Assembly (NCBI RefSeq): GCF_023078375.1
Contig: NZ_CP095554.1
Coordinates: 2,592,501 to 2,656,500 of the forward strand
Source of the DNA: Roseomonas gilardii subsp. gilardii
GTDB taxonomy: Bacteria > Pseudomonadota > Alphaproteobacteria > Acetobacterales > Acetobacteraceae
DNA length: 64,000 nt
Reading direction: 5' to 3'
The notes under the pieces were generated by a model. That model was not told where the DNA came from, searched no databases, and saw only the letters and a list, made by a program, of their open reading frames with translations. Below are positions 49,658 to 60,634 of the stretch, piece by piece (positions within the stretch are counted from its first letter, which is position 1; each line of letters starts with the position of its first letter). The position numbers and the translations under genes were made by a program.

Positions 49658-51043
49658 TCAGCTCAGCCGGGTCATCACCACGATATAGGCGATGAAGACC
49701 AGGCCGAGGCCCCAGACCACGCCACTGATCTCCCGCGCCCGGCCGAGCGACAGGAAAAGCAGGATGTAGCTCAGCGTGCCGATCGCCATGCCGTTGATCA
49801 GATTGTTGGTCAGCACCGTCAGCAACAGCGTCAGCGCGACGGGCACGGCATTGGTGAGCTGGCCCAGGTCGATGCGCGTCAGCCCCTGCAGCATCAGCAC
49901 GCCGACCACCACCAGCGCCGGGGCCGTCGCCTGCGGCGGAATCACGGTGAAGACCGGCCAGACGAAGAGCGCCAGGAAGAACAGCGCCGCGACGGTGATG
50001 GAGGTGAGCCCGGTGCGGCCGCCCGCCTGCACGCCGGTGACGGATTCGATATAGGCCGTGACCACGGAGGTGCCGAGGATGGGGCCCACGATCGTCGCCG
50101 TCGCATCCGTGGAGAAGGCCGCCGTGGCATTGGGGATGGAGCCGTCCGGCCGCCGCAGGTTCGCCGCCCCCGTGACACCGATCACCGTCGCCAGCGTCGA
50201 GAAGAACTCGGCGCAGACGAAGTAGAAGAGGATCGGCAGCACCACGACGAAATTCTGGAACATGTAGGAGAAGTCGAGCTGGCCGAAGGTATTCGAGGGC
50301 CAGTGCGGCAGCGCCAGGAAGGCGGAGGGCGTCCTGGTGATGACGGTGCCGTTCGGCAGCGGCACGAAGCAGCCGATGACCGTCAGCACGGCGATGGAAA
50401 GGATCAGCGCGCCGGGGATCTGCCGCGCCACCAGCATCGGCGTGACCAGGATGCCGGCCAGCGTCAGCAGCACGGCGGGTTCGCGCAGCGATCCCATGGC
50501 GATGAAGGTGCTGGGGTTGGCGACCACGAAGCCCGCGCCACGCAGGGCGATGAAGACGATATAGGCGCCGACCGCCGCGCTGATGCCGACCTTCAGCACC
50601 TCCGGCACGTCCTTCGCCACCTTCTCGCGCAGCTTCGTCAGGCTGAGCAGCAGGAAGACCACGCCGGTGAAGCAGACCATGGCGAGCGCGCCCTGCCAGG
50701 GCACGCCCATCCCCTTCACCAGGATGAAGGTGAAGACGACGTTGGAGCCCATGGCCGGCGCCACGGCGAGCGGCAGGTTCGCCGTCAGCCCCATCATCAC
50801 GCTGCCGAAGATGGCGGCCAGCGCGGTGGCGATCACCAGGTCGCCGCGGTCCATACCCGCCTGCGACATGATCGCCGGGTTCACCGCGATGATATAGGCC
50901 ATGGCGGCGAAGGTGGTCAGGCCGGCGATCATCTCCTGCGGCACGGAGCTGTTGCGCTCGCTCAGCTTGAAGAAGCGGTCGAGCGCGCCTTTCGGCCGCG
51001 CATCGTCGACGGGCGCCCCCGCGCCAAGGCTTGCGTTGCTCAC
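49658..51043 (-). CDS. NCS2 nucleobase permease (AzgA-like)
   Basis: This 461-aa membrane transporter has 12-14 predicted helices. Family features are NSSVPQEMIAGLTTFAAMAYIIAVNP, ANLPLAVAPAMGSNVVFTFILV, FYFVCAEFFSTLATVIGVTGAANL and ATATIVGPILGTSVVTAYIESVTGVQAGGRTGLTSI (the NCS2/AzgA signature). Such proteins import adenine, guanine, hypoxanthine or related bases with protons. Substrate specificity cannot be read here. It lies between the adenine-deaminase-like gene and mobA, 15 bases after the former. A role in purine or uracil uptake fits the cluster. Confidence 0.9.
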   Translation of the reverse strand: MSNASLGAGAPVDDARPKGALDRFFKLSERNSSVPQEMIAGLTTFAAMAYIIAVNPAIMSQAGMDRGDLVIATALAAIFGSVMMGLTANLPLAVAPAMGSNVVFTFILVKGMGVPWQGALAMVCFTGVVFLLLSLTKLREKVAKDVPEVLKVGISAAVGAYIVFIALRGAGFVVANPSTFIAMGSLREPAVLLTLAGILVTPMLVARQIPGALILSIAVLTVIGCFVPLPNGTVITRTPSAFLALPHWPSNTFGQLDFSYMFQNFVVVLPILFYFVCAEFFSTLATVIGVTGAANLRRPDGSIPNATAAFSTDATATIVGPILGTSVVTAYIESVTGVQAGGRTGLTSITVAALFFLALFVWPVFTVIPPQATAPALVVVGVLMLQGLTRIDLGQLTNAVPVALTLLLTVLTNNLINGMAIGTLSYILLFLSLGRAREISGVVWGLGLVFIAYIVVMTRLS

Positions 51044-51058
51044 GTGGGAAACCCCCTC

Positions 51059-52930
51059 TTACCAGACGACCGGATGCGTCTCGCCGGTCTGCACGTTGAC
51101 GAAGCCCAGCGGCGCCTGCTCGCAGGGGGCCACGAGCACCCAGCGCCAGGGCGCGCAGGTGAGGGTGGCGAAGATCAGGCGTTCCGGGAAACCGGGGAAC
51201 CAGCGGGGGTGGAAGGTGGGCTCGTACATCCACTCCACCTTCGCGCCCTCGTCATAGAGGTGCTGCATCTCCGCGTTCAGCGCCTCCGCCGGGCGGCAGG
51301 TCATCAGCCCGCCGACCTCGTAGCGCACGGTGGCGGCCAGCTCGCCCTCCCGCACCAGGGCCCAGCCGCCGCCGATCCCGCGCAGCGCGTTCACGGCCTT
51401 CGCCATGGCCGCGTCGCAGGAACCGACGACCCAGATATTGTGCTTGTCATGCGCGACGGAGCAGGCCAGCGCGGTGCCGGGCGTGGCCGGCCCGCAGCCG
51501 AGCCAGAACATCCGCGCCGTCCGCCCCTCGCCGGAGAAACGGTCCACGATGGCGAATTTCGTGACGTTGCGCGCCGCGTCGCGCTGCACGGCGCCCCCGG
51601 CGACCGGCAGTTCCGTGGTGATGAAGCCGTCATTCCAGTGGAAGGGGCGCAGCAGCGCCGCCTGCATCGTCGCGCGGCCCGGTTCGGCGGCGATGCGGAA
51701 ATCCTCCGCCACCATCTCGCGCCGGATGTTCACCGTCCGCGTCGCCCAGCCGGGCCAGTCGATACGCGGCACCGGGCCGGTATAGCGCGTGCCCTCGCTC
51801 ACCGGCTGCCCATCGGCCCAGACCTTGGCGATCTCCAGCGCCGCGACATCGCGCAGCAGCACCACATCGGCGAAGCGGCCGGGGGCGAGGCTGCCGACCC
51901 AGGGCGTCAGCCGCATGTGCCGCGCCGGGTTCAGCGTGACGCACTGGATCGCGGTCTCGGGGGCGAGGCCCAGGCGGATCGCGGTGCGGGCATTGTGGTC
52001 CGTGGCCCCCAGCCTGATCGTGTCCGAGGCGCTGCGGTCGTCGGTGGTGAAGGCGACCTGCGACCAGTCGGCGAGGCCCTTGTCCAGCAGCCAGGGGATC
52101 ACCTGGTCCATGGAATAGGGACGGATCTCGGTGAAGATGCCGTGGCGGAGCTTCTCCCACACCTCCTCCGGCGACCAGGCCTCATGGTCCGAGGCGAGGC
52201 CGGCGGCGGCGAAGGCGTTGATCTCCGGCAACTCGCGCAGCCCCGCGCCATGGCCCTCCACCACGCCGCGCTGGGCGAAGGTCGCCTGGATCATGCCCCA
52301 GAGCCGCTTGTAGGAAGGGTTCTCCGGGTTCCAGACGGCGGGCCAGTCCATCACCTCGTCCAGCCCGGCCACCATCAGGCTCTCGCGCAGGAAGCCCTGC
52401 TGCTCGTCATGGCCGAACCAGCCGCCGCCCCATTCATAGGCGGTGGGCGGCACGGCGGAGCCGGGCAGGGGGAAGATCTTCAGCGGCGAGCCCTGGCGGC
52501 GCGCGGTGAGCCAGAATTCCAGGTTGTGCGGCCCATCCACGTTGGAGAATTCGTGGCTGGCCTCGCAGGTCCAGGTATTGCCACGCGGCAGTACCAGCGC
52601 CGCCTCCCATTCCGGGGTGAGGTGGGAGCTCTCGATATGCTTGTGCACCTCGCCGAAGCCGGGCACGGCGGCGAGGTCCGGCTCATGCACATGCTCCGCC
52701 GCCTCGCCGGGCCAGGAGCCGGCGGGGCCGACATAGGCGATCCGGCGGCCCCGGATGACGATCTCGGCATCCTCCATCCAGCTCCGCGTGTGCACGTCCA
52801 GCAGCCGCCCGACCCGCAGCACCCGGTCCGCCGGGCGTTTCCCCAGGGCCACCAGTGTCAGCTCCTGACGGATGCTCACCTCGTTCGCGGCATCGATCAG
52901 CAGGTCGTCGGGGAGAGGGGAAGGGGTCAT
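51059..52930 (-). CDS. Adenine-deaminase-like amidohydrolase (divergent)
   Basis: This 623-aa protein belongs to the adenine deaminase branch of the amidohydrolase superfamily. Metal-binding segments are present but altered. The usual PGFIDxHxHxESS reads PGFGEVHKHIESSHLTPEW, and the DPHEIANV-type motif reads EASHEFSNVDG, so the usual Asp of that motif is absent. Later FTTDDRSASD and AIQCVTLNPARHMRLTPWVGSLAPGRFADVVLL are typical. It may deaminate adenine to hypoxanthine or act on another base or ring-opened product. The ATG at 52930 (MTPSP) is chosen. The protein heads the permease-mobA unit and lies next to the URC-like uracil genes. Confidence 0.82.
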   Translation of the reverse strand: MTPSPLPDDLLIDAANEVSIRQELTLVALGKRPADRVLRVGRLLDVHTRSWMEDAEIVIRGRRIAYVGPAGSWPGEAAEHVHEPDLAAVPGFGEVHKHIESSHLTPEWEAALVLPRGNTWTCEASHEFSNVDGPHNLEFWLTARRQGSPLKIFPLPGSAVPPTAYEWGGGWFGHDEQQGFLRESLMVAGLDEVMDWPAVWNPENPSYKRLWGMIQATFAQRGVVEGHGAGLRELPEINAFAAAGLASDHEAWSPEEVWEKLRHGIFTEIRPYSMDQVIPWLLDKGLADWSQVAFTTDDRSASDTIRLGATDHNARTAIRLGLAPETAIQCVTLNPARHMRLTPWVGSLAPGRFADVVLLRDVAALEIAKVWADGQPVSEGTRYTGPVPRIDWPGWATRTVNIRREMVAEDFRIAAEPGRATMQAALLRPFHWNDGFITTELPVAGGAVQRDAARNVTKFAIVDRFSGEGRTARMFWLGCGPATPGTALACSVAHDKHNIWVVGSCDAAMAKAVNALRGIGGGWALVREGELAATVRYEVGGLMTCRPAEALNAEMQHLYDEGAKVEWMYEPTFHPRWFPGFPERLIFATLTCAPWRWVLVAPCEQAPLGFVNVQTGETHPVVW

Positions 52931-53077
52931 GGCATATCCGGCGGGCTGGAGACGGCGGCCACACGGATCGTGATCCCCGGCCACCGGGTCCCGGGGAAAA
53001 TCTTGCAATTTGAGTGCCATGTACAGGGCCGCCGCGGATCGCCGCCGGCCGGGGGCGTGTCGGGCCGGGGAGCTCAG

Positions 53078-53327: not shown

Positions 53328-53969
53328 TCACTTGGTGCCGAAGAGCCGGTCCCCCGCATCGCCCAGGCCGGGCAGGATATAGGCATGGCCGTTCAGCTCG
53401 CGGTCCAGCGAGGCGGTGAAGACCGGCACGTCCGGATGCGCCTCGGCGAAGACGCGCAACCCCTCCGGCGCGGCGAGCAGGCAGACGAAGCTCACCTGCG
53501 ACGCCCCGGCCTGCTTGATCCGCGACACGGCGGCGGCGGCGGAATGGCCGGTGGCCAGCATCGGGTCCACCGCGATCACCTGCCGGGCGCCGATATCCTC
53601 GGGCAGCTTCAGGTAGTATTCCACCGGCACCAGGGTCTGCGGGTCCCGGTACAGGCCGACATGGCCGACGCGGGCGGAGGGGACGAGGTCCAGCATCCCC
53701 TGCAGCAGCCCGTCGCCGGCCCGCAGGATGGACACGAAGCAGAGCTTCTTGCCGGACAGGATGGGCGCCTCCATCACCTCCAGCGGCGTCTCGATGCTGG
53801 TGGTCTCCAGCGGCAGGTCGCGCGTGACCTCATAGGCCATCAGCAGGCTGATCTCGCGCGCCAGGCGGCGGAACTCCCCGGTGGAGGTCTCCTTGCGGCG
53901 CATCAGCGTCAGCTTGTGCTGCACCAGCGGGTGGTCGATCACCTTCAGGGTCGGATAGGCGGCGGGCAT
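53328..53969 (-). CDS. upp: Uracil phosphoribosyltransferase
   Basis: This 213-aa enzyme joins uracil and PRPP to UMP. The family sequence is clear: [38 protein letters not shown], then [31 protein letters not shown] and the PRPP-binding motif [18 protein letters not shown], followed by [26 protein letters not shown] at 53969. It lies 48 bases after the URC4-like gene on the same strand. In the yeast URC pathway a uracil phosphoribosyltransferase (Urc6) is part of uracil breakdown, so it may feed that route as well as salvage. Confidence 0.97.
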
Positions 53970-54017
53970 GGCGTGGGGCCTTCTTCGTCTCGGCGGGCTG
54001 GGAAGCGGCGGGCAGGG

Positions 54018-55259
54018 TCAGAAGACCGTGCCGTCGCTCCGCACGTTCAGGGGCGGCGTGCCGCCCGGGCGTTTCTCGCGGGCGATGCGGCGGCCGGCGG
54101 CCCAGGTGCCGCCCTCCAGCACGCGGGCCAGGGGCATCCCGGCGGCGGTGAGGCCCAGCCGGGCGCGGACGCCCTCCGCCACCCGGTCCAGCAGCGCCAC
54201 GGTCAGGGCGCGCCATTCCACGATGGCCTCATGCTCCACGGGCAGGGGGCCTTCCGCCAGGGCGGGGTCACGCAGCTCCAGCACGCCGAGATCCAGGAAC
54301 AACCCGCCATTGCGGTATTCCGGCAGGCCGGTGAGCTCGTCGAGCCCGGTCACGCGCAGCCCGGCCTCCTCCAGCGCCTCGATGAGCGAGTAGCTGAGCC
54401 ATTGCGACAGCTTGTGGAAGGGCAGCAGGCCGGGCGCGGGCTCCTCCGGCGCGGCGAGGGGGTGGCGCCAGACATCGCCGAGATTCTCGCCGCCCAGGCT
54501 GAGCCGCGAGGGCCAGATCGGCGCGAAACCCTCCAGCACCGCCGCCAGCACGGTGCGGGCGGGCAGGGTGCCCTCCTCGGCCCGCGCCGCCAGATGGTCG
54601 TAGAGGCGTCCGATCCGCGCCTGCGGGGCGAAGATGTCCGGCCGGGCGCGCAAGGCTTCGCCCAGCGCCCGCATCAGCGCGGCGCGGCCCTCCAGCCCTT
54701 CCAGCGGGTTGCCCGGCCCGGCCTGGAAGGCGGCGCCGAGCGCGGCGGCGCTGATCCGCGACAGGCCATCCGCATCGGCGCGCAGGGGATGGGCCGGATC
54801 GCCGGAAAAGAGGCCAGCCGAGAAGGCATGCAGGCTGGCCACCGCCAGCCCCTCGGAGCGGGCGATGCGCTGCCCGTCCTCGGTGAAGGCCCAGTCGGGC
54901 CCGGCCCCGGCATCCAGCAGCACGCTGACGACGCAGAGGTCGAAGCGGATGCGCGCGACCTCCTCGCCCGACTGGTCCTCCAGCATCCGGGCGAGTTCGC
55001 CCCAGCGGTCGCGCCCGCCCGCGGCGAAATGCCGCCAGCGCGCATGATAGGGGATGGCGAGGTCCGGGTAGTTGTCGCGGATCACCGCCGTGACGTAATC
55101 CGCCGCCGCCTCCAGCCGCTCCGGATGCAGCCGGAAATGCGGCAGCGCGTCGCGTTCCGCCAGCGCCAGCATGGCATGGGCGCGCCGCCGGATCGTCGCC
55201 GGATCGCGCAGCAGGGCGAGCTGGGCGGCGAGGCCGGCCCTGTCCTCCGCCGCGCTCAC
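54018..55259 (-). CDS. URC4/DUF1688-like protein
   Basis: This 413-aa protein resembles URC4 (DUF1688), which is needed for uracil breakdown in the yeast Lachancea kluyveri but whose reaction is unproven. Family-like segments include HFRLHPERLEAAADYVTAVIRDNYPDLAIPYHARWRHF, FDLCVVSVLLDAGAGPDW, GLAVASLHAFSAGLFS and FHKLSQWLSYSLIEALEEAGL, then GGLFLDLGVLELRD. It starts at GTG 55259 and overlaps the URC1-like gene by four bases (GTGA), then is followed by upp. This gene order is the core of a URC-type cluster. Confidence 0.88.
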   Translation of the reverse strand: MSAAEDRAGLAAQLALLRDPATIRRRAHAMLALAERDALPHFRLHPERLEAAADYVTAVIRDNYPDLAIPYHARWRHFAAGGRDRWGELARMLEDQSGEEVARIRFDLCVVSVLLDAGAGPDWAFTEDGQRIARSEGLAVASLHAFSAGLFSGDPAHPLRADADGLSRISAAALGAAFQAGPGNPLEGLEGRAALMRALGEALRARPDIFAPQARIGRLYDHLAARAEEGTLPARTVLAAVLEGFAPIWPSRLSLGGENLGDVWRHPLAAPEEPAPGLLPFHKLSQWLSYSLIEALEEAGLRVTGLDELTGLPEYRNGGLFLDLGVLELRDPALAEGPLPVEHEAIVEWRALTVALLDRVAEGVRARLGLTAAGMPLARVLEGGTWAAGRRIAREKRPGGTPPLNVRSDGTVF

Positions 55260-56578
55260 TCCTGCAGCCCGCGTCCCTTGATGCGCGCCAGCTCGGCGGC
55301 ATCCGGCACCTTGTCGGTGAAGTATCCGGCGGCCTTCTTGGCGTCCATCTCCACCTGCGCATCGGGCGGGATCAGCTCCTCGGGGATGGGCACGCGCTCC
55401 ACCACCTCGATGCCGCTGGCGACGATCGGCTCGTATTTCATGTTGCTCATCGAGACGAGCCGGTCGATCCGCGTGATGCCGAGCCAGTGCAGCACATCCG
55501 GCATCAGCTCCTGGAAGCGCATGTCGTGCACGCCCGCCACACCCGCCGTGCAGGCGAAATAGCGGTCGGCACGGTCGCCACCCTCCTGCCGCTTGCGCGC
55601 ATTGTAGACGAGGAACTTCGTCACTTCCCCCAGGGCGCGCCCTTCCTTGCGGTTGTAGACGATGACGCCCACCCCGCCGCGCTGCGCCTGCGCCTCCTCG
55701 ATGCAGACCTCGATCCCATGCGCCAGATAGGGGCGGCAGGTGCAGATGTCGGAGCCGAACACGTCGGAGCCGTTGCACTCGTCATGGATGCGGCAGGCGA
55801 TGCGCGTCTCCGGCTGGCCCAGCTTCGCCGGGTCGCCGAAGAGATAGACGGTCATGCCGCCGATCGGCGGCAGGAAGGTCTTGAGGTCGGGCCGCGTCAC
55901 CAGTTCCGGGAACATGCCGCCGGTCTGCTCGAAGAGGCCACGGCGCAGGTCGTTCTCGGTGATGCCGAAGCGTTCCGCCACCCCCGGCAGCCACCAGACC
56001 GGCTCGATGGCAACCTTGGTCACGCGCGCATCGCCGCTGGCGCCGAGGATCTGCCCATCCGGCTCCAGCCGCCCGGCGCGCATCGCGGCGGTCAGCTCCG
56101 GCATGTTGATATGCGCCTTGGTGACCGCGATGCTCGGCCGGATGTCGCGCCCCGCGGCGATCTCGGCGCCGAAGGCCTCGGTGGTCATGTGGCCCCAGGG
56201 GTCGAGCGAGACGATCCTCGCCGGGTCTCCCCATTGCAGGAAGGGGCCGATCGGTTCGGCCGGGCGGGTGTTGGTCAGGTCCGGCCGGTGCCCGGCGGAA
56301 AGCTGCCCGGCGGCGACGGCCAGGGCGCGGTAGAGCGCATAGGACCCCGCATGGGTGCCAATGGCGTTGCGGTTGCCCTCGCCGGGGGTGGCGATCACCG
56401 GGCCGCGCCGCTGCGGATCGGCGGCGCCCCACTGCACCGGCGGCGCGATCTGGCCGCCGATCCCGGGATGCGAGGTGAGGATGATGGGCCGCGCCGGCCC
56501 GGGCCGGTTGCCGCGGAGGGCCGCCTGCGGCAGCGGCGCGGCGAGCGGGGACGGCACGGTTTCCGGGATCTGGCTCAT
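55256..56578 (-). CDS. URC1-like GTP cyclohydrolase II homologue
   Basis: This 440-aa protein has a GTP-cyclohydrolase-II (RibA) domain in its second half. The zinc cysteines are kept (RIHDECNGSDVFGSDICTCRP), followed by VIVYNRKEGRALGEVTKFLVYNARKRQ in place of the RibA YLRQEGRGIG segment. The long N-terminal extension (about 220 aa, GVIATPGEGNRNAIGTHAGSYALYRAL-like residues) is absent from true RibA. It matches URC1, an enzyme of uracil breakdown that is thought to open the pyrimidine ring. ATG at 56578. It is the first gene of the URC1-URC4-upp unit, driven from the region holding the RutR-type palindrome. Confidence 0.88.
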   Translation of the reverse strand: MSQIPETVPSPLAAPLPQAALRGNRPGPARPIILTSHPGIGGQIAPPVQWGAADPQRRGPVIATPGEGNRNAIGTHAGSYALYRALAVAAGQLSAGHRPDLTNTRPAEPIGPFLQWGDPARIVSLDPWGHMTTEAFGAEIAAGRDIRPSIAVTKAHINMPELTAAMRAGRLEPDGQILGASGDARVTKVAIEPVWWLPGVAERFGITENDLRRGLFEQTGGMFPELVTRPDLKTFLPPIGGMTVYLFGDPAKLGQPETRIACRIHDECNGSDVFGSDICTCRPYLAHGIEVCIEEAQAQRGGVGVIVYNRKEGRALGEVTKFLVYNARKRQEGGDRADRYFACTAGVAGVHDMRFQELMPDVLHWLGITRIDRLVSMSNMKYEPIVASGIEVVERVPIPEELIPPDAQVEMDAKKAAGYFTDKVPDAAELARIKGRGLQE

Positions 56579-56716
56579 CGCGCGAAGCTCCCCTGGCGGG
56601 CGGTTTCCTTCCAGGGCGGGGCTGGCCGGGGGGAGGGGATCTGCACGACGCGCTGGATCATCCGGAAGGGCTCCATGGCGAGGATGGCCGCTCAAGTCAG
56701 GGAGGCTATTGTGACC

Positions 56717-56732
56717 TTGACCGATCGGTCAA
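56717..56732. promoter_or_regulatory. RutR-type operator
   Basis: TTGACCGATCGGTCAA is a perfect 16-bp palindrome. It fits the RutR-binding pattern TTGACC-N4-GGTCAA known from E. coli. It lies 44 bases before the RutR-like gene and 139 bases before the URC1-like gene, which point away from each other. On the minus strand it includes a TTGACC that could serve as a -35 element, so binding could block the URC1-like promoter. Confidence 0.85.
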
Positions 56733-56775
56733 CTTGCAAGATGGGCACGGGTCGGCCGCTCTGCGGGGGATCGGA

Positions 56776-57453
56776 ATGGCGAAGCACGCGGAAACGGCAG
56801 GAACCGATGCGGGCGAGGGCAGGCCTGCCTCACGCGAAGGCAGGCGCCAGGCGCTGCGGGCGCAGATCCTGCGGGCTGCGGAGCGCGTCTTCGCCGAGGC
56901 GGGCTTCGCCGGGGCCAGCATGTCGGCCCTGGCCGAAGCCGCCGGGCTGCCGAAGGCCAACCTGCATTACTATTTCGGCACCAAGGAAGCGCTCTACCGC
57001 GCGGTGCTGGACGACATCCTGGCGCTCTGGCTCTCCGCGACCGACGACATCCGCCCCGGCAGCGACCCCGCGACAGCGCTCACCGCCTATATCCGCGCCA
57101 AGATGCGGCATTCGCGCCTGCGGCCCCATGCATCCCGCGTCTTCGCCAATGAGGTGCTGCACGGAGCGCCCCAGTTGCACGGCTTCTTCGCCACGGAATT
57201 GCGGGATCTCGTGGAACAGAAGGCCAAGGTGATGGAGGGGTGGATCGCCGCCGGGCTGATGCACCCGATCGATCCGCGCCACCTCTTCTTCTCCCTCTGG
57301 GCCATGACCCAGACCTATGCGGACTTCGCGGCGCAGATCACCCCGGTGCTGGGCATCCCGGAGATGGACGAACGGAGCTGCGCGGAGGGCGAAGAGACCA
57401 TCCTCAGGCTCATCCTGGGTGCCTGCCTGCCCCGGCGGGACATGCCACCGTGA
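56776..57453 (+). CDS. RutR-like TetR-family regulator
   Basis: This 225-aa regulator has an N-terminal TetR helix-turn-helix (ILRAAERVFAEAGFAGASMSALAEAAGLPKANLHYYFGTKEALYRAVL). Its C-terminal ligand domain resembles RutR/YcdC (HASRVFANEVLHGAPQLHGFFATELRDLVEQKAKVMEGWIAAGLMHPIDPRHLFFSLWAMTQTYADFAAQ). E. coli RutR senses uracil and thymine and represses the rut operon. The ATG at 56776 has GGGGGA upstream. It faces away from the URC1-like gene across a RutR-type palindrome, so it probably represses the URC genes and itself until uracil is present. Confidence 0.9.
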   Translation: MAKHAETAGTDAGEGRPASREGRRQALRAQILRAAERVFAEAGFAGASMSALAEAAGLPKANLHYYFGTKEALYRAVLDDILALWLSATDDIRPGSDPATALTAYIRAKMRHSRLRPHASRVFANEVLHGAPQLHGFFATELRDLVEQKAKVMEGWIAAGLMHPIDPRHLFFSLWAMTQTYADFAAQITPVLGIPEMDERSCAEGEETILRLILGACLPRRDMPP

Positions 57454-57563: not shown

Positions 57564-58640
57564 TTGGGATCCGCCTTGGCGAGCAAGATTACGCGAAGGA
57601 AAGCCATCTGGGCGATAGGTTCTTTCGCCGTCTCGCGTAACGCGGTGGCAGCTTCCCTGCATCGTCCATTGTCTGATGATTTCGCGAAGGGCTGGCACGC
57701 CTTCGCCCGGCACTTCCTTTCGGCCGAGGGCCGGGTGGTCGATACCGCCAATGGCGGGATCACCCATTCCGAAGGGCAGGGATGGGCGATGCACTTCGCC
57801 CTCCGGGCCGGCGACCGGCCCCGCTTCGAGCGAATCGCCGAATGGACACAGGAGAACCTCCGTCTCGGGCCGCATGGCCTGCATGCCTGGCGCGGCACGG
57901 CCAGCGACGGCAGCGAGGATCCCAACAACGCCACGGATGGCGACCTGTTCATCGCCTCGGCGCTGATCCTGGCCGGCGAGCAATGGGGGCGGCCGGACTG
58001 GCGCGCGAGCGGCCTCGCCACCGCGCAGGACATCCTCCGGATGCTGCCGCGCCGGGTCGGCGGCCGGCTCGTCCTGCTGCCGGGGCTGCAGGGCTTCGAG
58101 CGGGGCGGGGAGGTCGTGGTGAACCCGTCCTACTACGCCTTCCCGATGCTGCGCATCCTGGCCCGGGCGCTGCCCGATCCGCTCTGGCTCGACCTGGCCG
58201 CGGATGGCCTGGCCCTGCTGCGGGATTCCTGCTTCGGCCCCCACGGCCTGCCCGCCGACTGGGTCGCGGTGTCCCGGACGGATGGGCGCGTGACGCCGGC
58301 GGAAGGCTGGCCTGCCCGCTTTTCCTACGATGCCGTCCGGGTGCCGCTCTGGCTCGGCTGGGCCGGCCTGGTGGAGGAGCCGGGCCTGCGCGGCCCGGCG
58401 GCCTTCTGGGCCGATGCGCCACGCCCGCCGCCCGCCTGGGTGGATCTGCGCAGCGGGGAAGGCGGGCCGGACCCGGCCCTGCCCGGCATGGTGGCCGTGG
58501 CCGATCTGGCGATGCGGCGCGCCGGCCTGTCCTTGGCGGCCAGCCGTCCTGACGGACTCTCCCGCCCGCCCATGCGGGACGACAACTACTATTCGGCGGC
58601 GCTGAGCCTTCTCGTCGCCCTGGCGGATCGCCCGGCATGA
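57564..58640 (+). CDS. bcsZ: GH8 endoglucanase of the cellulose operon (BcsZ/CmcAx-like)
   Basis: This family-8 glycoside hydrolase (358 aa) cuts beta-1,4-glucan during cellulose export. An N-terminal signal-like segment (RRKAIWAIGSFAVSRNAVAA) suggests a periplasmic protein. The catalytic segments are ITHSEGQGWAM (Glu near residue 70) and NNATDGDLFIASALILA (Asp near 125), with NPSYYAFPMLRILA and PARFSYDAVRVPLWLGW further on. The TTG at 57564 is the longest start; a TTG at 57576 is also possible, and neither has a strong ribosome site. It is the first gene of the cellulose operon, in the place of cmcAx in Komagataeibacter. Confidence 0.88.
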   Translation: MGSALASKITRRKAIWAIGSFAVSRNAVAASLHRPLSDDFAKGWHAFARHFLSAEGRVVDTANGGITHSEGQGWAMHFALRAGDRPRFERIAEWTQENLRLGPHGLHAWRGTASDGSEDPNNATDGDLFIASALILAGEQWGRPDWRASGLATAQDILRMLPRRVGGRLVLLPGLQGFERGGEVVVNPSYYAFPMLRILARALPDPLWLDLAADGLALLRDSCFGPHGLPADWVAVSRTDGRVTPAEGWPARFSYDAVRVPLWLGWAGLVEEPGLRGPAAFWADAPRPPPAWVDLRSGEGGPDPALPGMVAVADLAMRRAGLSLAASRPDGLSRPPMRDDNYYSAALSLLVALADRPA

Positions 58641-58706
58641 GCGCGCCGTCCCGCCCCCTCGCTCTTTGCATTGCACATGCCCCCGGCCGGTCGAGAGGCG
58701 CCTCGC

Positions 58707-59826
58707 ATGGATGACAAGTCTGATGTGCTGCGCGTGGCGGAAGCCCTGGGCACGACGGGCATGAGGTACCGGAACTTCAGCAACGAGGCCGTGCGCCGCA
58801 ACCCACCGGTCCGGCCGGCCCCGGTGGAAGCGCCGCCATCCGATGCCGCGCCGGCCGCGCCGGCCCAAGTGGCCACGGCACCCATGCCGCCGATGCCCGC
58901 ACCGGCCGTGCCGGCAGCGGCACAGTTTCCTGTCCAGCCTCCCGGCCCGCCTTCCGCGCAATGGATTTCCCAGGGCCAGTCCCCGAACCCGGACCCTGCC
59001 GGCATGCCCCTCCCGCCGCCCGCTTCCAGCCCGCCGCTGCACGACGCGCCGCCCGTACCGGCATCCTGGCCTCTGCCAGCCATGACTTCCGCAATACCCC
59101 CGGCCATGCCTCCGAACGGTTTTCCGGGAACCCCCAGGGAACCCCCCAGGGAAGCCAGCCGGCCTGGCCCGCCTCCGCGCCGCCCCCGCCGGCCGCTGTC
59201 TGGGAGGCGCAGCGGGCCCCGCTCCATCCTGCCCCGCTGCCCGCTGTCCCGCCCATGGCTCCACACGCACTCCCCCAGGCGCTCCCCCAGCCGGAACATC
59301 CCATGTTCCATCCATCGCAGCCGGTCCCGGCACCGCACCGGCCGCCCGCCGCTCCGGCCAGTGCCGCCGCGTGGCCGCCGGGCCATGGCTATCCGCCGCC
59401 CTTCCAGGGCGCGCCTCCCCCCGGTTTTCCCCCCCCCCCGGTTTTCCCCCACCGGGCGCGGGCGCCCATCTCCCTGTGCCACCTCCGGCCCCGCCCTGGC
59501 CTCCGGGGGCCGAAGCGGGTTTCGCCGCGCCGCCCCCGGCCATGCCGGGCTGGCCGGACCCCGCCCGCAACCCGCCCGCCGCGTCCTGGCCGCCGCCCCC
59601 GGCCATGCCGGCGGGCCCCGCGCCCATGGCGGCCGACAATCCGGCACCCGCGCCGCCGCGTACCGTCGAGGTGGATTTCGCGCTCTTCGCCGCCGTGGAC
59701 CACGCCATGGCGGATCTGCGCGCCTCGGTGAAGGTGCCGCAGCCGGGCACCGGCAGCCTCTCGGAACTGCTGCGCGGCATCGCCAACGCGACGGCGCCCC
59801 ATCCCTTCCCCCCGGACCAAAGGTAG
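58707..59826 (+). CDS. Proline-rich cellulose-operon protein (CcpAx/BcsP-like, two one-base losses)
   Basis: The N-terminus (MDDKSDVLRVAEALGTTGMRYRNF) resembles the short BcsR-like segment seen in BcsP/CcpAx-type proteins. A long Pro/Ala/Met-rich region then follows, and a folded end (RTVEVDFALFAAVDHAMADLRASVKVPQPGTGSLSELLRGIA). As written, the frame changes twice: at the G run 59126-59128 and at the C(11) run 59429-59439. One base added at each gives one protein of about 373 aa. The ATG at 58707 has GAGAGG upstream. Position between GH8 and bcsQ matches ccpAx in acetic acid bacteria, a protein that helps arrange the cellulose synthase complex. The family call is by place and N-terminal pattern. 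Confidence 0.7.
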
Positions 59827-59833
59827 GCCGAGC

Positions 59834-60634
59834 GTGCCGCTGATCTGCATGGCATCGCCGAAGGGCGGGGTGGGCAAGACCACCCTGGCGGCGAACATCG
59901 CCCACAACCTTTCCCGGGCCGGACGCCGCGTCCTGGTCATGGATTTCGACCCGCAGAACGCGCTGCGGCTGCATTTCGGCCTGTCCATCGGCGACCAGGC
60001 CGGCTGGGCCACGGGCCTGCCCGAGCGGCCCGACTGGCACCGGGCGCTGCGGCAGACGGGCTCGGGCGTCGCGCTCCTGCCCTTCGGCGTGATCGACCTG
60101 GCGCGGGCGCTGGCGCTGGACGGGCTGCTCGGCCGCCAGCCGGAACTGCTGCTCGGCCCCATGCGGGCCATGCTGGCCGACGAGACGCTGCTGATCGTGG
60201 CGGACCTGCCGCCCGGCCCCTCGCGCAGCCTGGCCCTGCTGGCGCCGCTGGCGAATCTCGTGGTCTGCGTCCTCAAGGCCGAGGCGATGAGCGCCGCCCT
60301 GATGCCGGAGGTCGAGAGCGGCCGCTTTTCCGGCATCGGCCTGGGCACCGTCGATACGCACCGGCTGCGGGTGGTGATCAACGAGGTGGACCTGCAGTCG
60401 CGCCTGTCCCGGGCGGCAGCGGAGGCGGTGGCGCGGCATGCCGGCTGGCGCCTGCTGGGCGCGGTGAGCCGGGACGAGGCGGTGATGGAAAGCCTCGCCT
60501 GCCAGCGCCTCGTGGCCGACCATGCGCCGCAGTCCCGCGCCGCCAACGACCTGCGGGAGGTGGCGGAGGCGATCGCCGCCTGCATCCCCGTCCAGCAGCA
60601 GCCCGTGCCCGTCAGCATGTGGGGGGGGCGATGA
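59834..60634 (+). CDS. bcsQ: Cellulose biosynthesis protein BcsQ (ParA/MinD-like)
   Basis: This 266-aa P-loop ATPase is of the MinD/ParA type. The deviant Walker A (CMASPKGGVGKTTLAANIAHNLSRAGRRVLVMDFDPQNALRLHFG) is followed by IVADLPPGPSRSLALLAPLANLVVCVLKAEAMSAAL. BcsQ in other bacteria positions the cellulose synthase and is needed for secretion. The start is GTG at 59834, seven bases after the previous gene. Its stop overlaps the bcsA ATG (ATGA). Confidence 0.92.
   Translation: MPLICMASPKGGVGKTTLAANIAHNLSRAGRRVLVMDFDPQNALRLHFGLSIGDQAGWATGLPERPDWHRALRQTGSGVALLPFGVIDLARALALDGLLGRQPELLLGPMRAMLADETLLIVADLPPGPSRSLALLAPLANLVVCVLKAEAMSAALMPEVESGRFSGIGLGTVDTHRLRVVINEVDLQSRLSRAAAEAVARHAGWRLLGAVSRDEAVMESLACQRLVADHAPQSRAANDLREVAEAIAACIPVQQQPVPVSMWGGR

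Follow-up and report, generated by a model that had tools for sequence, protein, structure and literature searches.

A RutR-like regulator and its putative operator at the urc1-urc4-upp locus of Roseomonas gilardii, and a predicted Qng1-type fold of URC4

Does a uracil-sensing regulator of the RutR type control the still poorly understood URC route of uracil degradation in Roseomonas gilardii subsp. gilardii, and which reaction does URC4, its most obscure enzyme and a protein of 'function unknown', contribute to this route? Both questions are raised by a small locus in a stretch of 64,000 nucleotides (the window), in which a urc1-urc4-upp cluster and a divergently oriented regulator gene flank a palindrome. 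We consider it probable that this locus as a whole constitutes a uracil-degradation module switched by uracil. Its features, including two downstream neighbours, are:

49658-51043, minus strand: NCS2-type base permease (PF00860, 93 bits), downstream and outside the conserved unit
51059-53020, minus strand: adenine-deaminase-like amidohydrolase (TIGR01178, 265 bits, under the cut-off of 472.5), downstream and outside the conserved unit
53328-53969, minus strand: upp, uracil phosphoribosyltransferase, 213 aa (TIGR01091, 261 bits)
54018-55259, minus strand: urc4, DUF1688 protein, predicted ribosylurea(-phosphate) N-glycosidase, 413 aa (PF07958, 489 bits)
55256-56578, minus strand: urc1, GTP-cyclohydrolase-II-like protein, predicted UTP cyclohydrolase, 440 aa (PRK07198, 730 bits)
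56703-56708, minus strand: TAGCCT, predicted -10 element for urc1 (spacing to the -35 element 18 nt)
56717-56732, no strand: RutR-type operator, TTGACCGATCGGTCAA, a perfect 16-base palindrome
56727-56732, minus strand: TTGACC, predicted -35 element for urc1, identical with one operator half and so placed in 7/7 alphaproteobacterial loci
56776-57453, plus strand: RutR-like TetR-family regulator, 225 aa (PF08362, 166 bits; PF00440)

Gene families and genomic surroundings

The assignment of two genes to the URC1 and URC4 families, made in a preliminary description of the DNA, is borne out by profile searches. The urc1 protein reaches 730 bits (cut-off 403) against NCBIfam PRK07198, which we take to be the URC1 family, and displays a GTP_CH_N plus GTP_cyclohydro2 architecture (PF12471, 266 bits; PF00925, 55 bits). 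The motif Cys268-x10-Cys279-x-Cys281, whose cysteines presumably serve as zinc ligands after the example of GTP cyclohydrolase II, is unvaried in 16/16 aligned sequences. The protein also matches the PDB entries 7eev and 7ej3 with 603 bits; both are named 'GTP cyclohydrolase II' and are assumed here to represent the UTP cyclohydrolase of Zhang 2021. Judged from these similarities, the urc1 product is predicted to be a UTP cyclohydrolase that opens the ring of UTP. Its AlphaFold model was poor (pLDDT 52.6) and left unused. The urc4 protein scores 489 bits against PF07958 (cut-off 25), i.e. DUF1688, which we equate with URC4, and upp is the sole gene of the genome above the TIGR01091 cut-off (261 versus 208 bits).

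All three genes lie on the minus strand, with 4 bp shared by urc1 and urc4. Since urc4 and upp are separated by 48 bp, the earlier wording of one overlapping unit is slightly too strong. The adenine-deaminase-like gene follows upp at a distance of 307 bp. This gene and the permease gene were rejected as pathway members, as among the loci examined they occur beside urc only in two genomes of the same genus (L258, L259). In a further locus (L122) an ADE-type gene is present and urc is absent.

The initial impression that Rut genes are absent holds for RutA and RutB, the two searched, within the window, but not for the entire genome, which contains a RutA match (TIGR03612, 582 bits, cut-off 498) at G000:C1:2390437-2391501, ca. 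256 kb from the urc locus. No RutR box with at most one mismatch was found in the 19.9 kb stretch around this rutA. For RutB, the best match in the genome scored 89.6 against a cut-off of 378. A PydA query taken from locus L181 gave no match in genome G000 in a search run without a positive control.

Regulator, operator and urc1 promoter

The regulator is best read from the ATG at 56776, the longer open reading frame starting with TTG at 56734. It contains a TetR_N (PF00440, 57.5 bits) and a TetR_C_3/YcdC-like domain (PF08362, 166.1 bits), both above cut-off, and E. coli RutR is its best match among solved structures (E 3e-44), in agreement with the proposed RutR-like regulator divergent from the urc genes. 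It stays below both NCBIfam RutR equivalog cut-offs (TIGR03613, 194.7 versus 368; PRK15008, 167.6 versus 230) and so falls outside RutR as strictly defined there; by its domains, its ligand contacts and the box beside its gene it belongs to the RutR-type regulators broadly defined. All five residues with which E. coli RutR contacts uracil, W77, Y97, W167, Q171 and Q179, are present. In an alignment of 82 RutR rows comprising E. coli, Pyd-linked, URC-linked and other sequences, W77, Y97, W167 and Q171 as well as the DNA-side residues K52 and K62 are identical in 82/82 and Q179 in 81/82; the roles of these residues are described in passages of PMC10891134. Conservation of the pocket suggests that the regulator probably senses uracil. 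We regard it as very unlikely that it controls urc through the palindrome in response to another effector, such as a pathway intermediate, thymine or a ureido compound. The subthreshold equivalog scores and the dissimilarity of URC and Rut intermediates would be compatible with such an effector, but the contacts are retained in all 82 rows bar one at Q179, and uracil is the common factor of the RutR-linked pathways.

All 16 bases of the operator are self-complementary (TTGACC-N4-GGTCAA), and the site is 43 bp away from the ATG of rutR and 138 bp away from that of urc1. The perfect palindrome reported between the divergent genes is thus confirmed at 56717-56732, and the genome (4,624,884 bases searched, 97.6% complete) has no second exact copy. 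By chance 0.09 matches per genome and ca. 3e-6 in the intergenic region would be expected from the base composition of the window. Seven boxes with one mismatch exist elsewhere in the genome, five within genes according to a codon-position heuristic and two not. The palindrome core is kept in 6/6 urc-linked alphaproteobacterial relatives and in 20/20 betaproteobacterial urc operons with adjacent RutR (best-match shuffle P <=0.03 each). In the betaproteobacterial loci rutR follows upp in the same orientation; nevertheless, the box lies ahead of urc1. In four of the 20 (L170, L183, L190 and L192) it is found after the urc1 start of the longest open reading frame and before an ATG opening MSDHIVLT, which is taken as the start.

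As the alphaproteobacterial relatives and the 20 betaproteobacterial loci were chosen via RutR, they cannot test co-occurrence, for which solely two samples with together 84 readable urc clusters were used. The exact core precedes urc1 in 14/14 clusters with adjacent RutR and in 0/70 without. This applies to the class-and-phylum sample (2/2 versus 0/48; 55 stretches after exclusion of the own genome, G306, G025 and G479, 5 of the 55 without a usable urc1 upstream region) and to the within-family sample (12/12 versus 0/22; 34/37 stretches, the own genome, G980 and G1095 being excluded). The pooled Fisher p is 3e-16, a value that ignores kinship among the clusters. Core and adjacent RutR being inseparable in these clusters and the uracil contacts being kept, the idea of a uracil-sensing regulator joined to the URC route gains clear support. 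Sorted by neighbours, 80 RutR loci divide into 26 with URC, 23 with PYD and 31 with other genes. Trees, that of URC4 including 16/25 URC4 proteins, place the RutR–URC link at no fewer than two separate points, in Alpha- and Betaproteobacteria; judged from these sequences, the link in Betaproteobacteria was apparently acquired separately.

A promoter appears to be superimposed on the operator in the alphaproteobacterial loci. TTGACC is kept on the urc1 strand in 7/7 loci, the opposite half being CTGACC in the six relatives, and TAGC[C/G]T recurs at identical spacing from the -35 element in all seven. In the window, this -10 element predicts a urc1 transcription start near 56696. The same -10 element and spacing are present in 12/12 RutR-linked loci of the within-family sample, five contigs, matched by their length, being common to both sets. 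A generic sigma-70 promoter scan reported no site at the urc1 promoter, the predicted -10 element retaining only TA---T. A search for a sigma-54 element in the seven alphaproteobacterial loci was negative (shuffle P 0.13 to 1.0). Upstream of the box in the betaproteobacterial operons, a sigma-54-like element exists in 20/20, and the box starts 9-18 nt after the -12 element, at or just beyond the likely transcription start.

This architecture bears on two further explanations. RutR might chiefly regulate itself or a distant target, with urc constitutive or nitrogen-controlled and the genes mere neighbours. TetR regulators often control their own gene alone, and the sigma-54-like element in 20/20 betaproteobacterial operons suggests added nitrogen control. 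We nevertheless judge this highly improbable, considering that the betaproteobacterial box precedes urc1 although rutR is downstream of upp, that the exact core is missing from all 70 clusters without adjacent RutR, and that the half-site kept as TTGACC in Alphaproteobacteria faces urc1. Alternatively, RutR might act at the site as an activator or a roadblock instead of preventing -35 recognition. A box 9-18 nt past the -12 element fits a roadblock better than polymerase exclusion; however, the half-site occupies the -35 place in 7/7 alphaproteobacterial loci, and we consider this mode of action distinctly unlikely. Repression of urc1 by occlusion of its -35 element is the reading pursued below.

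Fold and predicted chemistry of URC4

The AlphaFold model of URC4 is confident (pLDDT 89.4), and its predicted fold is of the Qng1 type. A Foldseek search of the PDB yielded 11 matches at E <=0.001, all of them Qng1/DUF2419 (E 7e-10 to 4e-8, probability 1.00, rmsd 4.8-5.8), while the next match has an E of 0.65. The TM-scores are 0.70-0.74 by target and 0.56-0.62 by query. In a sequence alignment, Lys283 and Glu314 of URC4, unvaried in 115/115 sequences, fall on Lys199 and Asp231 of Qng1, respectively. The latter two we infer to be catalytic from the PDB mutants K199C and D231N. Collinear motifs accompany the two positions (FHK...LTGLPEYR...VEWRALT in URC4, FYK...LTAFADYK...VEIRAAT in 7u07). 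The model-based match of URC4 to Qng1, with Lys283 and Glu314 on Lys199 and Asp231, appears to be new here.

At the sequence level the relationship is faint. PF10343 (Q_salvage) matches 13/48 DUF1688 proteins with a best E of 1.4e-4, two individual scores being 12.3 and 19.9 bits (cut-off 25), and the URC4 of the window, one of the 48, is outside these 13. An hhalign comparison of DUF1688 with two Qng1 fragments gave a Probab of only 6.5 (E 0.0056), but its score of 24.1 was reached neither by any of 100 shuffles (best 20.1) nor by the reversed control (16.0). Searches of PDB sequences with the window URC4, URC4 profiles and one divergent member returned no Qng1, only nothing or chance matches. 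PF10343 was unmatched in 200 genomes of the phylum and in 14 control genomes, which renders that search uninformative.

On the basis of the model, URC4 is predicted to be an N-glycosidase cutting the ribose-urea bond with release of urea. A protein that shares the Qng1 fold and yet functions as a lyase, a phosphatase or a pathway scaffold appears unlikely. It would accord with the weak sequence similarity, the replacement of Asp by Glu at the catalytic site and the TM-scores by query of 0.56-0.62, but would leave unexplained why neither the Lys nor the acidic residue varies among the 115 sequences. Moreover, passages of PMC7530994 and PMC8709784 assign yeast URC4 to the conversion of ribosylurea to urea, i.e. 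to the bond that a nucleosidase would cleave. If the predicted glycosidase activity is true, it closes a gap in the URC route. Given a confident model near a known nucleoside-monophosphate glycosidase and named residues, the 'function unknown' of URC4 becomes accessible to a simple enzyme assay.

Proposed mechanism and comparison with known systems

Consistent with the gene families, the operator, its association with RutR in the samples, the promoter-like spacing and the uracil contacts, we propose the following course of events. As long as uracil is lacking, the RutR-like regulator would occupy the palindrome at 56717-56732 as a dimer; since one operator half is the predicted -35 element, RNA polymerase would be kept from urc1-urc4-upp, and autorepression of rutR is probable. 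Uracil, held between the two conserved tryptophans, would then release the repressor and turn the operon on. Upp would convert uracil to UMP, cellular kinases would form UTP, and URC1 is expected to open the nucleotide's uracil ring. URC4, by means of Lys283 and Glu314 in its Qng1-type fold, might subsequently cleave the ribose-urea bond of ribosylurea or its phosphate, and the released urea could be converted to ammonia by urease, whose alpha subunit gene is present in the genome (990 bits, cut-off 680). In L146, a locus of Cupriavidus, a cytosine deaminase gene (826 bits, cut-off 438) comes after the urc-rutR genes and would supply uracil to the URC route. Cupriavidus necator H16 is reported as a uracil non-user in a passage of PMC6572756, a point against the scheme should that strain carry the operon.

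We moderately favour the combined interpretation that URC4/DUF1688 forms a new Qng1-fold N-glycosidase family cutting the ribose-urea bond of opened UTP, and that RutR was plugged independently into URC at least twice by a portable 16-bp operator in two promoter types, one half coinciding with the -35 element in Alphaproteobacteria and the box following closely on a sigma-54-like promoter in Betaproteobacteria. Both the regulatory switch and the chemistry of URC4 are directly testable at this one small locus.

The regulator shares its TetR subfamily and uracil-contact residues with E. coli RutR, and its operator is of the same type as the ca. 16-bp palindrome described in passages of PMC10891134. 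Their targets appear to differ: E. coli RutR acts on rutABCDEFG, whereas the likely target of the window regulator is the urc operon. For 68 genomes spanning 13 taxonomic groups, Leyn et al. 2016 (PMC5343134) described RutR regulons whose motif changes from taxon to taxon; passages of the paper do not mention URC genes, and the targets are given in supplementary tables, which may already contain the RutR–URC link. These supplementary targets aside, passages of the open-access literature among the matches listed revealed no link between RutR and URC genes or between DUF1688 and Qng1.

Pyd-linked RutR loci (Azospirillum, Acidiphilium, Rhodoferax and others) possess a regulator of the same subfamily, and in several alphaproteobacterial ones the box and its position are as in the window, but the neighbours are genes of the reductive route (PydA in 23/80 loci) instead of URC. 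A single type of uracil sensor thus seems to have been coupled with three uracil routes of unrelated chemistry, Rut, Pyd and URC, a clean natural experiment on the re-use of a regulator.

With the URC system of yeast (Lachancea kluyveri URC1, URC4 and URC6) the locus has in common the trio of a cyclohydrolase-like protein, a DUF1688 protein and a uracil phosphoribosyltransferase. Unlike in yeast, where the URC regulator is of another kind, the genes adjoin a RutR-type repressor. URC4, finally, resembles Qng1/DUF2419, a queuosine-5'-monophosphate N-glycosylase, in its predicted fold and in the positions of Lys199 and Asp231, and deviates from it by Glu314 in place of Asp231 and by the lacking PF10343 match of the window protein. 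The expected leaving group is urea for URC4 and queuine for Qng1.

The urc locus, its probable regulator and its probable operator

The locus comprises four genes, called by sequence reading and family scans, and one palindrome:

53328-53969, minus strand: upp (TIGR01091, 261 bits vs cut-off 208)
54018-55259, minus strand: urc4 (DUF1688/PF07958, 489 bits)
55256-56578, minus strand: urc1 (PRK07198, 730 bits vs cut-off 403)
56717-56732, between the rutR-like gene and urc1: palindrome TTGACCGATCGGTCAA, exact TTGACC-N4-GGTCAA
56776-57453, plus strand: RutR-like TetR-family gene, 225 residues (YcdC-like C-terminal domain, 166 bits)

The family scores bear out the URC1-like and URC4-like assignments of the preliminary description, and the perfect palindrome placed there between the two sides is indeed exact. 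The described overlapping minus-strand unit holds for urc1 and urc4, which share 4 bp, but not for upp, which is separated from urc4 by 48 bp and is the single copy over cut-off in a genome search. The nearest solved structures for URC1, 7eev and 7ej3 (603 bits), are labelled GTP cyclohydrolase II and presumably form part of the UTP cyclohydrolase work of Zhang 2021. Two genes follow upp (49658-53020), one for an amidohydrolase that resembles adenine deaminase but scores under the ade cut-off, the other for an NCS2-type permease; among the loci examined they adjoin urc only in two genomes of the same genus (L258 and L259). The region adjoining rutR (57564-60634) contains a family-8 glycosyl hydrolase (PF01270, 180 bits; BcsZ, 172 bits, cut-off of 299 not reached) and, as judged by eye, an ORF resembling a ParA/BcsQ-type ATPase, suggesting a cellulose synthase cluster.

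Among solved structures the regulator is closest to those of E. coli RutR (E 3e-44), which agrees with a RutR-like protein opposite the urc genes; however, its scores are under both NCBIfam RutR cut-offs, and it is therefore named RutR-like and not filed as a RutR equivalog. According to PMC10891134, uracil in E. coli RutR is contacted by W77, W167, Q171, Q179 from the partner subunit and, via water, Y97; in a homology model K52 and K62 touch DNA. All seven residues are found in the window protein; Q179 is conserved in 81 of 82 RutR rows and the other six in every row. Because these contact residues are conserved, the regulator is likely to respond to uracil.

TTGACCGATCGGTCAA is the sole exact TTGACC-N4-GGTCAA match in the genome sequence searched (4,624,884 bases), 0.09 matches being expected from the base composition of the window. 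A one-mismatch box, TTGACCTTAACGTCAA, is located at G000:C1:639460-639475 of the same genome (L210:1961-1976), flanked by divergent predicted ORFs that start 37 and 33 bp away, and is possibly a second site or one belonging to another regulator.

The earlier statement that no Rut genes are seen does not extend to the whole genome, as RutA scores over its cut-off (582 bits vs 498) at G000:C1:2390437-2391501 (L209:9438-10502), some 256 kb away from urc. The best RutB match in the genome is far under cut-off, the five scanned neighbours of rutA include an amidase (PRK06169, 510.6 bits) and no Rut proteins, and a 19.9 kb stretch around rutA is free of boxes, even with one mismatch allowed. The RutA of this genome might be a stand-alone uracil oxygenase.

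Association of RutR and box with urc clusters

DUF1688 was detected in 38 of 385 class, 26 of 398 phylum and 37 of 395 order genomes, in overlapping sets which each include the window's own genome. Of 55 class and phylum matches whose surroundings were inspected, 53 have upp directly behind urc4 in the same orientation and 2 have a RutR relative within about 9 kb (tblastn E <= 1e-8). The region upstream of urc1 was readable in 50 of these matches and carries the exact core TGACC-N4-GGTCA in both clusters with RutR vs none of the 48 without, the best of which deviate by 2-4 mismatches. Within the family, the exact core was found in 12/12 clusters with divergent RutR vs 0/22 without RutR, one of the latter reaching it at one mismatch. 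Pooled, this amounts to 14/14 vs 0/70 (Fisher p 3e-16, kinship ignored). L261, from a genome of the same genus as the window, contains a urc1-urc4-upp cluster 75-85% identical to that of the window, and neither RutR nor box within the stretch examined; in this genus, regulator and operator seem to appear and disappear jointly.

A profile search of genome contigs with a three-row RutR alignment provided further relatives, of which the best 80 loci of a longer list were analysed; as they were picked by RutR, they are no test of co-occurrence. Within the stretches examined, 26 have urc genes beside RutR, 23 have PydA and 31 neither. Urc4 is visible in 25 of the 26, the cut-off locus L124 showing urc1 only. 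Six alphaproteobacterial loci (Pseudoroseomonas, Roseomonas) share the divergent layout of the window and the core box, and 20 betaproteobacterial loci (Cupriavidus, Caldimonas, Zoogloea, Azoarcus and others) are arranged as urc1-urc4-upp-rutR in one direction. The core box lies at the urc1 start in all 20 (shuffle P 0 to 0.03 each), in four of them behind the longest-ORF start, yet ahead of the likely ATG. Five alphaproteobacterial contigs of this set agree in length with contigs of the order sample, and one of 43,123 bases is common to L116 and L180; this set and the genome samples above are therefore not independent. In the Cupriavidus locus L146, urc-rutR is followed by a BMP-type ABC substrate-binding protein (84 bits, cut-off 400), a permease (169 bits, cut-off 465) and a cytosine deaminase (826 bits, cut-off 438), the last of which would fit a feeding of uracil into the URC route.

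In the RutR tree (82 rows, E. coli RutR being a long branch) the URC label takes three changes, two of them forced by well-supported branches. The window and its six alphaproteobacterial relatives cluster weakly (87/41) with Pyd-linked alphaproteobacterial proteins, and the URC-linked betaproteobacterial proteins fall into a betaproteobacterial clade (98/90) among Pyd-linked and other members. The URC4 tree (72 rows) requires two changes of the RutR-linked label, both forced. The simplest reading of these phylogenies would be that RutR was joined to URC twice, separately.

Predicted promoter architecture

In all seven alphaproteobacterial loci the urc1 strand reads TTGACC, half of the box, 18 nt and TAGC[C/G]T, and the latter motif keeps its position in all 12 RutR-linked family loci. 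The urc1-facing half is TTGACC in 7/7 loci and the rutR-facing half CTGACC in the six relatives, as expected if the former doubles as a -35 element. The predicted urc1 promoter at the box went undetected in a generic scan for sigma-70 sites. Upstream of urc1, all 20 betaproteobacterial operons (L129-L197) carry a sigma-54-like -24/-12 element, TGGCAY-N5-TNGC, with a score of 9-10 of 11 (individual shuffle P 0 to 0.08) and 9-18 nt between its end and the box that follows; none was found in the seven alphaproteobacterial loci. On the basis of the -35-like half-site in the one group and the sigma-54-like element in the other, RutR seems to be combined with two kinds of promoter, and the betaproteobacterial arrangement suggests that nitrogen limitation and uracil jointly control these operons.

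Predicted fold and activity of URC4

A confident AlphaFold model of URC4, built from 19 sequences (mean pLDDT 89.4, pTM 0.88), gave 11 Foldseek matches in the PDB at E <= 0.001, all being queuine-salvage DUF2419/Qng1 proteins (E 7e-10 to 4e-8, probability 1.00, 14-19% identity); the next match has an E of 0.65. The superpositions reach TM values of 0.70-0.74 by target and 0.56-0.62 by query with an rmsd of 4.8-5.8. The Pfam Q_salvage profile matches 13 of 48 DUF1688 proteins (best E 1.4e-4), two individually inspected matches being under cut-off, and does not match the window's URC4.

Lys199 and Asp231 of Qng1 are substituted in 7u5a and 7ulc. When a 7u07 fragment is aligned to URC4 281-358, with gaps of one and four residues, they correspond to Lys283 and Glu314, which are invariant in 115/115 DUF1688 proteins. 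The hhalign score is 24.1 (at a low Probab of 6.5) vs 20.1 for the best of 100 shuffles and 16.0 for a reversed control. For the window's URC4 and the locus sets L064-L118 and L254-L287, DUF1688 is predicted, from the model, to have the fold of the queuosine-monophosphate glycosylase Qng1 with its Lys/acid pair. Yeast URC4 is assigned to the step from ribosylurea to urea in excerpts of PMC7530994 and PMC8709784. Joining this step with the fold evidence, we regard URC4 as a putative glycosidase cutting the ribose-urea bond. The genome also encodes a urease (990 bits), which would use the urea.

The URC trio and RutR are already known, as is the distribution of RutR regulons. Among the matches listed in the open-access literature, as far as their text was accessible, neither a RutR-URC nor a DUF1688-Qng1 link appeared; the former may already be catalogued in the supplementary target lists of PMC5343134. 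Of the results reported here, the predicted URC4 fold is of the greatest interest.
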